Below are positions 20,021-22,486 of a stretch of 64,000 nt of DNA, in pieces (positions within the stretch are counted from its first letter, which is position 1; each line of letters starts with the position of its first letter). Location: NCBI GenBank assembly GCA_945869165.1, contig CAMBNY010000006.1, positions 1 to 64,000 of the forward strand, in the 5' to 3' direction. Under the pieces are notes generated by a model. It was not told the DNA's origin. It saw only the letters and a list, made by a program, of their open reading frames with translations, and did no database searches. The DNA is from Comamonas sp. lk. GTDB lineage: Bacteria > Pseudomonadota > Gammaproteobacteria > Burkholderiales > Burkholderiaceae_C. Made by a program: the position numbers and the translations under genes.

Positions 20021-21106
20021 ATGAAAATCGCAATCCTGCCAGGCGACGGCATCGGCACCGAAATTGTGGCCGAGGCCATCAAGGTGCTCCAAGCCCTGGA
20101 CCTGTCCTTCACCATGGAAAGCGCGCCCGTCGGTGGCGCCGCCTATGAGTCGCACGGCCACCCGTTGCCCGATTCGACTTTGCAATTAGCCAAAGATTCC
20201 GACGCGATTTTGTTCGGCGCGGTGGGCGACTGGAAATACGACACACTGGAGCGCGCCCTGCGCCCCGAGCAGGCCATTTTGGGCCTGCGCAAGCACCTGG
20301 GCTTGTTCGCCAATTTCCGCCCCGCTATTTGCTACGAGCAACTGGTCAATGCCTCCAGCCTCAAGCCCGAATTGATCTCGGGCCTCGATATCCTGATCAT
20401 CCGCGAACTCACGGGCGACATTTATTTCGGCCAGCCGCGCGGACGACGCACCGCCACTGACGGCCACTTCCCTGGCGCTGAAGAAGCTTTCGACACCATG
20501 CGCTACAGCAAGCCCGAAATTGAGCGCATCGCCCATGTGGCCTTCCAGGCCGCGCGCACCCGCAAGGCAGCAGGCAGCGAAGGTCGCGTCACCAGCGTGG
20601 ACAAAGCCAATGTGCTGGAAACCTTCCAGTTCTGGAAAGATGTAGTCACCGAAGTAGGCCAAAGCTACCCGGACATCGCGCTAGACCATATGTATGTGGA
20701 CAACGCCGCTATGCAACTGGTCAAGCAGCCCAAGCGCTTTGACGTGGTGGTGACCGGCAATATGTTTGGCGACATCCTGAGCGACGAAGCCTCCATGCTC
20801 ACCGGCTCCATCGGCATGCTGCCCTCGGCCAGCCTCAATAGCCGCAACCAAGGCCTGTACGAGCCCAGCCACGGCAGCGCCCCTGACATCGCTGGCCAAG
20901 GCGTGGCCAACCCGCTGGCTACCATCCTGAGCGCCGCCATGATGCTGCGCTTTAGCCTGAAACAGCCCGAGGCCGCCGCCCGTATAGAAAAAGCCGTGGA
21001 CGCCGTGCTCACCCAAGGCCTGCGCACCCCCGACATCTACAGTCCCGGCACCAGCAAAGTTGGCACGCGGGAGATGGGCGACGCGGTGGTGAAGGCTTTG
21101 GGCTAG
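20021..21106 (+). CDS. leuB: 3-isopropylmalate dehydrogenase
   Basis: A 361-residue NAD-dependent beta-decarboxylating dehydrogenase giving 2-oxoisocaproate. The opening is [17 protein letters not shown]. Substrate contacts lie in [17 protein letters not shown] and metal ligands in [45 protein letters not shown] binds NAD. It completes the leuCDB set; leuA is not in the window. Confidence 0.97.
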
Positions 21107-21172
21107 CGTGGATCAGCTTGCGGTTTGAAGCCGTAAAGCCTAAGTCGTAAGCTAGCCCTCAGCGAGTGAGGC

Positions 21173-21178
21173 TACAAT
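21173..21178 (+). promoter_or_regulatory. Candidate -10 box of the asd leader
   Basis: A TACAAT hexamer lies eight bases before the ATG of the asd leader ORF. No TTGACA-like element is found 16-18 bp upstream, so an activator or read-through from leuB may contribute. If used, transcription would start at or next to the leader ATG, making a leaderless leader peptide. Confidence 0.35.
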
Positions 21179-21185
21179 CTTTTCC

Positions 21186-21281
21186 ATGTTTCACGCCCAC
21201 CTGTTCACCCTGAACCCCGCCACGGTCATTACGGCCCGTGCAGGTGCGCGCGCAATCATCACCAAAACCACGACCGGCTGA
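21186..21281 (+). CDS. Putative asd leader peptide (attenuation ORF)
   Basis: A 31-codon frame, too short for the ORF track, in the 261-bp leuB-asd gap. Its end reads AIITKTTTG followed by TGA. Seven consecutive codons are Ile-Ile-Thr-Lys-Thr-Thr-Thr, all end products of the aspartate pathway in which asd acts, recalling E. coli ThrL. The Thr codons overlap the 5' arm of the first of three competing hairpins. There is no Shine-Dalgarno; a TACAAT box eight bases upstream would allow leaderless initiation. Chance occurrence cannot be excluded from one sequence. Confidence 0.5.
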   Translation: MFHAHLFTLNPATVITARAGARAIITKTTTG

Positions 21282-21324
21282 CATAGCCCGGTTCGTCGTG
21301 CGCCCCCCGGCCAGACGAGCCGGG
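21269..21324 (+). promoter_or_regulatory. Competing hairpins in the asd leader
   Basis: Hairpin A pairs CACGA...CCGG (21269-21277) with CCGG...TCGTG (21288-21300). Hairpin B pairs CCCGGTTCGTC (21287-21297) with GACGAGCCGGG (21314-21324), 11 pairs with one G-U. Hairpin C pairs CCCGGC (21306-21311) with GCCGGG (21319-21324). A excludes B, and B excludes C, the logic of an attenuator. C is not followed at once by a U-run; seven T occur about 22 bases later. A simple intrinsic terminator is therefore not evident. Confidence 0.45.
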
Positions 21325-21367
21325 AAAATAGTCAGGTCACACACTGTTTTTTTGAAAGGGCAATGCA

Positions 21368-22486
21368 ATGAGTAAGTTAGTAGGATTGGTCGGCTGGCGC
21401 GGCATGGTCGGCTCGGTGTTATTGGACCGGATGCAGGCAGAAGGTGACTTTGACCTGATCGAACCTCTGTTTTTCTCCACCTCTAACAGTGGCGGCGCAG
21501 CGCCCAGCTTTGCCAAGAACGAAACCACTTTGCAAGACGCCTTCGACTTGGCGGCCCTGCAACGCTGCGACATCATCATCACCGCCCAGGGCGGCGACTA
21601 CACCACCGAGGTCTATCCCAAACTGCGCGCGGCTGGCTGGAAAGGCTATTGGATTGATGCCGCCAAAACGCTGCGCATGAAAGACGATGCGGTCATTATT
21701 TTGGACCCGGTCAACCGCCAGGTTATCGACGCCGCATTGGCGCGCGGCGTAAAAGACTATATCGGCGGTAACTGCACCGTGAGCTGTATGTTGATGGGAC
21801 TGGGCGCCCTTTTCAAGGCCGATTTGGTGGAATGGATGACGGCCACCACCTACCAAGCAGCCAGCGGCGGCGGCGCGCAGCACATGCGCGAGTTGCTGAC
21901 CCAAATGGGCACGCTCAACAGCGCGGTGCGCACCCATTTAGACAATCCCTCCAGCGCGATTTTGGAGATTGACCGCCAGGTAGCCGCCACCCAGCGCGCC
22001 CTCTCGCCGGAAGAAACCAAAAACTTTATGGTCCCCCTGGCCGGTAGCCTGATCCCCTGGATCGACAGCGACCGAGGCGACGGCACCAGCCTGGAAGAAT
22101 GGAAAGGCAGCGCGGAAACCAACAAAATCCTAGGTCGTCAAGATAACCCCGTGCCCATCGACAGCATTTGCGTGCGCGTAGGCGCCATGCGCTGCCACAG
22201 CCAGAGCCTGACCATCAAAATGAAGCGCGATGTGCCACTGGCGGACATAGAGGCTATGTTGAAGCAAGACAATGCTTGGGTGCGGTTTGTCGCCAATAAC
22301 CGCATGGACAGCGTCCGGGAGTTAACCCCTGTTGCCGTGACCGGCACTATGGATATTGCGGTTGGCCGCGTCCGCAAACTCGCCATGGGGCCCCAGTATC
22401 TGGGCGCCTTCACCATCGGCGACCAGCTGCTATGGGGCGCAGCAGAGCCGCTTAGGCGCATGTTGCGCATATTGCTGGAAGACTGA
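21368..22486 (+). CDS. asd: Aspartate-semialdehyde dehydrogenase
   Basis: A 372-residue NADPH-dependent enzyme reducing aspartyl phosphate to aspartate semialdehyde, the branch point to lysine/diaminopimelate, threonine and methionine. The NADP fold starts [15 protein letters not shown]. The catalytic Cys lies in [14 protein letters not shown] and the substrate loop in [16 protein letters not shown]. Length and start agree with the gammaproteobacterial-type enzyme. AAAGGG seven bases before the ATG is a good ribosome binding site. The preceding leader appears to hold an attenuator. Confidence 0.97.

Follow-up and report, generated by a model that had tools for sequence, protein, structure and literature searches.

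Does the short leader ORF that precedes asd in Comamonas sp. lk serve as the sensor of an attenuator and, if so, through which step would it set the output of asd? Asd stands at the branch point of the aspartate pathway, and threonine, isoleucine, and lysine are products of the pathway behind it, as is Met. In the window, i.e., the whole 64,000-nucleotide stretch of DNA analysed, leuB lies upstream of asd in the same direction and the leader ORF sits in the gap between them (Table 1). The "lone asd" of the first-pass annotation thus needs qualification: asd follows leuB, and a gap of only 80–110 nt in many relatives is compatible with one transcript.

The leader ORF translates as MFHAHLFTLNPATVITARAGARAIITKTTTG followed by the stop, with GGC TGA directly 3′ of the regulatory codons. 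On direct reading, the claimed 31-codon ORF ending in seven Ile/Thr/Lys codons is correct to the base. Seven such codons in a row have a p of ~2e-6, calculated from composition alone for one site and uncorrected for searching; it is the comparative data across relatives that exclude a chance origin of the run.

Table 1. Features of the leuB–asd gap in the window and the gene proposed to be controlled
Feature	Coordinates	Strand	Details
TACAAT −10 box, leader promoter	21173–21178	+	direct reading; seven bases 5′ of ATG
Leader ORF	21186–21281	+	31 codons, probably leaderless; ORF list, direct reading
Regulatory codons Ile Ile Thr Lys Thr Thr Thr	21255–21275	+	ATC ATC ACC AAA ACC ACG ACC
Hairpin A (segments 1:2)	21270–21299	+	21270–21274 with 21295–21299; 21276–21279 with 21285–21288
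Hairpin B (segments 2:4), proposed ON conformer	21287–21324	+	21287–21297 with 21314–21324, 11 pairs
Proposed anti-Shine-Dalgarno (anti-SD) GTGCGCCC in B loop	21298–21305	+	complementary to asd ribosome-binding site
Hairpin C (segments 3:4), proposed OFF conformer	21306–21324	+	21306–21311 with 21319–21324
Hairpin D, AU-rich	21325–21350	+	21325–21332 with 21343–21350; overlaps 7-base U-run 21347–21353
asd ribosome-binding site GAAAGGGC	21354–21361	+	GGGC 21358–21361 is the partner of the proposed anti-SD
asd, aspartate-semialdehyde dehydrogenase, proposed controlled gene	21368–22486	+	

Conservation and two forms of the coding tail

Upstream regions of asd were gathered by protein search and by place and were oriented, with leuB and asd located, giving 187 regions from Comamonadaceae and relatives. 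The element was defined as a coding frame ending with at least 5 Thr, Ile, or Lys in its last 12 residues just 5′ of the hairpins. A check of homologous leuB–asd gaps, proposed in the first pass, finds the run kept in 154 of the 187 regions, directly 5′ of the same hairpins; the element is absent from ~18%, and 32 regions have three or fewer of these residues in the last 12. At each locus, the stop richest in Thr/Ile/Lys within a fixed interval was picked, which favours high counts, and the same scoring still returns only 0–3 in loci that lack the element. The mean stem score 3′ of the stop codon is 26.0 with the tail versus 13.6 without it.

The coding tails of relatives contain 30–37% Thr, 14–19% Lys, and 13–17% Ile, with no enrichment of Met, and the median count of these three residues in the last 12 is 8 in separate ORFs and 7 in LeuB tails. 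Across the sequences compared, conservation extends to the coding tail itself, the frame in which it is read, and its composition.

A match to a profile made from 70 sequences is present in 251 of 301 family genomes and 105 of 115 genera, mostly once per genome; the genome of Comamonas sp. lk itself has a single strong match. All 70 of the 70 matches checked lie 37–130 nt upstream of asd, and none of the strong matches lies upstream of another gene. Of the other families sampled, two contain the element (G457 and L218); apart from G457, weak matches beyond the family are no more than expected by chance, and none has asd close by. In most other families sampled, LeuB ends in MGDAVVAAL or similar without the element, which suggests, as far as these genomes go, that most of the order's other families have asd after leuB without this switch. 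Short leuB–asd gaps and plain LeuB ends are seen in G201–G221 and others outside the family.

The Thr/Ile/Lys run comes in two forms: (i) a separate ORF of about 31–38 codons in 73 of the 154 loci and (ii) the C-terminus of LeuB, without a separate ORF, in 81, with at least one locus (L041) counted as an ORF being in fact a LeuB tail. Of the leader proposed in the first pass, the run thus proves general, and the separate ORF does not, since the LeuB C-terminus takes its place in about half of the loci. The median length of LeuB after the conserved MGxxxV motif is 12 residues in the LeuB-tail form, 4 next to a separate ORF, and 7 where the element is absent; in the last group, the LeuB tails contain 1.6% Thr and no Ile. 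On an Asd tree, 12 changes are required for the LeuB-tail state, of which well-supported branches force at least 6, a count that is approximate as it comes from one gene tree with many weak branches. On balance, we lean slightly toward a reading in which the sensing leader of the attenuator would be the LeuB C-terminal tail in about half of the family, with repeated switching between a free leaderless ORF and this graft, and in which the RNA switch would stay constant and act on asd translation.

In the tail of separate ORFs, 58% of single-base codon differences are synonymous in frame versus 18% and 10% in the other two frames, and the frame signal is weaker over the whole separate ORF (421 synonymous and 638 non-synonymous differences). 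This codon comparison indicates that the free leader ORF is translated and that its reading frame is under selection. The N-terminus MFAARPF, far from the regulatory codons, is also conserved in many Acidovorax-like leader ORFs (e.g., L019, L114, and L172).

A TATAAT-like box with at most one mismatch lies within 22 nt of the in-frame ATG, mostly 6–9 nt before it, in 62 of the 73 separate-ORF loci, and TACAAT itself is present in 43 of 52 non-redundant ones. This spacing leaves no room for a Shine-Dalgarno site, and the free leader ORF is probably leaderless; the same reading, drawn in the first pass from the TACAAT box, is backed by the conserved TACAAT-to-ATG spacing. No recognisable −35 accompanies the leader promoter, and a sigma-70 pair scan of the window scored none. 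In the Cupriavidus loci L100–L108, TAGACT stands six bases 5′ of the leader ATG instead of TACAAT, and the leader ends in IKTIIKTAIA or similar.

In five loci (L009, L011, and L032–L034), leuB is ~830–877 nt from asd and the leader and hairpins still adjoin asd; the element therefore travels with asd. L187, placed by GTDB in the window's genus, retains the hairpin upstream of asd; its LeuB ends in EMGDAVIKALK before the stop, and the Thr/Ile/Lys ORF is missing. From its sequence, this locus has likely lost its leader naturally, with the hairpin left as a remnant.

Competing hairpins and the proposed switch

The coordinates and competition of hairpins A, B, and C given in the first pass are confirmed. 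The three are mutually exclusive in part and cannot all coexist, with B and C sharing segment 4. The segment 21284–21327, which holds hairpin B, folds with −28.2 kcal/mol (z = −5.3) and hairpin C with −12.6 kcal/mol (z = −3.3).

With the two groups of loci mixed in one alignment (A3), gaps interrupt the stem of hairpin B and RNAalifold recovers only 4 of its pairs; structure was therefore tested on each group separately. Hairpin B is paired in 94.1% of cells in ORF-type loci and in 90.0% in LeuB-tail loci, with covariation above 500 of 500 shuffles in both. Hairpin C is paired in 90.9% and 85.8% of cells, respectively, with covariation above 500 of 500 shuffles in the ORF group and weaker covariation (37/500) in the LeuB-tail group. 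The expectation that the stems covary is thus borne out in ORF-type loci for both B and C and in LeuB-tail loci for B, with C weaker there. Support for hairpin A is below that for B and C (alignment A1: pairing in 88.0% of cells, two-sided changes in 2 pairs). The shuffle controls keep the relatedness of the sequences, and reliance is placed on the agreement of several tests. In the 8 sequences with A at the variable position of segment 4, U is found in segment 2 of all 8 and in segment 3 of 6; segments 2 and 3 thus co-vary with their shared partner, as expected of alternative pairings. By this comparison, B and C have been retained as alternative hairpins competing for segment 4. In folding models of separate-ORF loci, the median for hairpin B is 0.83 with a stalled ribosome versus 0.00 with a released one, and that for hairpin C is 0.02 versus 0.94.

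Both marks of leader-peptide attenuators in the broad sense, a product-rich coding tail and mutually exclusive downstream structures, are found here. With run and stems kept in homologues, the attenuator interpretation of the first pass is strongly supported by comparison, and ribosome-mediated attenuation of asd by Thr/Ile/Lys codons is very probable on these sequence grounds. The proposed attenuator would allow Asd synthesis under a shortage of threonyl-, isoleucyl-, or lysyl-tRNA. The leader RNA would start at or next to ATG 21186. A ribosome stalled on the Thr/Ile/Lys codons would cover segment 1, segments 2 and 4 would pair as hairpin B, and the anti-SD would be held in the B loop, leaving asd translatable. 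A ribosome at the leader stop would cover segment 2 so that hairpin C forms, and the anti-SD would then pair with the asd ribosome-binding site around C and D, turning asd down. In LeuB-tail loci, the ribosome finishing leuB would do the sensing.

The candidate anti-SD lies in a conserved GCGCCC of the B loop, outside all stems of A, B, and C. In the window, the helix consists only of GCCC:GGGC (4 pairs). Across loci, the anti-SD pairs better with its own ribosome-binding site than with swapped ones (p = 0.009, 0.007, and <1e-4 pooled), and the control with the other end of the B loop is null. The signal is stronger when the B loop is set against all sequence downstream of segment 4 (3 of 5000 and 0 of 5000 swapped trials), and the ORF tail, as a control, pairs downstream no better than with swapped partners. 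Two-sided changes link B loop and ribosome-binding site in TGCGCC/GGCGCA (L090, L137), CGCGCC/GGCGCG (L110), TGCCCT/AGGGCA (L017), GCCCCA/TGGGGC (L088), and TGCCCCT/AGGGGCA (L136). A column-wise count gives only 71% of cells paired because the register slides. The features of a translational attenuator, a leader complementary to the ribosome-binding site and compensatory change, thus emerge from the swap tests and weakly from the column count. Many Rubrivivax-like loci have only GCC:GGC at the anti-SD position and use another helix, and the B-loop helix of LeuB-tail loci is often located 5′ of the ribosome-binding site.

C and D lie inside the anti-SD helix, which is compatible with B only in a pseudoknot. 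When 21294–21376 is folded without constraints, as though a ribosome occupied the leader stop, the closed form with C, D, and the anti-SD helix results. In equilibrium folding of the stalled state, the ribosome-binding site becomes slightly more accessible in ORF-type loci (p = 0.008) but not in LeuB-tail loci (p = 0.85). A separate candidate, a helix between the codon run and the ribosome-binding site, was rejected because it does no better than swapped pairs. The whole mechanism, with translation initiation as its main output, is moderately probable, its output step being one that we infer.

Termination and other rival explanations

The first pass noted that hairpin C lacks an adjoining U-run and suggested Rho or another mechanism. 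The absence is confirmed and general in the family; a translational output may explain it, and it points to regulated initiation of translation no less than to Rho. Under transcription attenuation, the same leader and hairpins would operate, and C, together with D and its U-run or through Rho acting on the C-rich gap, would stop transcription before asd. The order of A, B, and C is like that of trpL and thrL, U7 follows hairpin D in the window, some LeuB-tail loci (e.g., L015 and L181) have a long stem ending in TTTT, and B-loop-to-downstream pairing is strongest in LeuB-tail loci, often off the SD itself. However, a terminator scan of 21060–21420 finds no site, hairpin D (−3.9 kcal/mol) folds no better than shuffles, at least four consecutive U precede the SD in only 44% of loci with a separate ORF and 26% of those with a LeuB tail, and L086 and L096 retain hairpin D without any U-run. 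An intrinsic terminator at C or D is rejected as the general output on the basis of the empty scan, the fold of D, and the few U-runs. The GC-rich hairpin directly followed by a U-run that typifies trpL and thrL is not found here, and a Rho-dependent form is possible. Transcription attenuation is accordingly the less likely output, translation initiation being given about twice the weight of termination. A hairpin at the D position is common in separate-ORF relatives (mean z −1.2), and the U7 run just 5′ of the asd ribosome-binding site is shorter in the nearest relatives.

Nascent-chain sensing, in which the tail would be an arrest peptide stalling on ligand or exit-tunnel contacts rather than on uncharged tRNA, could account for the ending KTTTIKG often shared by separate ORFs. 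The composition of the tail is constant, but its order is not (ITGKTITKS, ITTTKTIKS, ATTIKTIIKTAIA, and ITKTITTKTIIKR); sensing of uncharged tRNA is therefore favoured over an arrest motif, and the arrest peptide is improbable. Still less credible is a metabolite- or protein-binding, riboswitch-like RNA with an incidental ORF. It would fit the strongly conserved hairpin sequence and the hairpin left without a leader in L187, but frame-specific synonymous change and the relocation of the run to the end of LeuB need translation, Rfam 15, including Thr_leader, has no match in the window at E up to 1, and 20 relatives give only two sub-threshold hits, both to unrelated families. Chance or an annotation artefact, for which only the short length of the ORF speaks, is negligible given the element in 251 of 301 family genomes.

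Meaning and comparison with known systems

A switch that reads three products in one peptide would show how a betaproteobacterial family with environmental and pathogenic members balances the aspartate fork. If the LeuB-tail form is true, (i) attenuator leaders need not be separate tiny ORFs, (ii) searches limited to free upstream ORFs overlook such leaders, and (iii) the Thr/Ile/Lys-rich ends of many annotated LeuB proteins are regulatory, not catalytic. Free, grafted, and lost leaders form a natural series for experiments.

The first pass knew of no described example, and the open-access literature likewise yields none; as the scope is that of open papers, novelty is not proven. Each ingredient has precedent. 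No description was found of these ingredients in combination, of a Thr/Ile/Lys set upstream of asd, or, most notably, of an enzyme tail serving as leader.

The E. coli thrL attenuator of thrABC (Rfam Thr_leader) has a leader peptide rich in Thr and Ile codons. Like thrL, the asd element places a short Thr/Ile-rich leader directly before alternative hairpins and an aspartate-pathway gene. Unlike thrL, it also uses Lys codons, precedes asd alone, contains no general intrinsic terminator, probably has a leaderless leader, and employs the LeuB tail as leader in half of the loci. In SecM-type regulatory nascent chains, the C-terminal end of a longer protein is the sensing leader for the next gene, a role proposed here for the LeuB tail; in contrast to that type, the proposed cue is hungry codons rather than an arrest motif, and LeuB is a metabolic enzyme.

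The LEU element before leuA in Actinobacteria shares with the asd element a leader peptide with regulatory codons, the lack of a plain terminator, and a proposed involvement of the ribosome-binding site (PMC1262725). Its codon run is proposed to pair with the Shine-Dalgarno box (PMC1262725), whereas in the asd element that pairing is null and the proposed anti-SD lies in the B loop. The leader-peptide RNA of the S. meliloti trpL attenuator begins with ATG and provides a leaderless precedent in proteobacteria, although that system uses Trp codons and a transcription terminator and belongs to an alphaproteobacterium (PMC7298713). The Corynebacterium ilvB-II motif resembles the asd element in its uORF enriched for products of the controlled pathway, its alternative stems, and their covariation, and differs in having an intrinsic terminator with a U-run, in responding to branched-chain amino acids, and in occurring with a free uORF only (PMC10272879).
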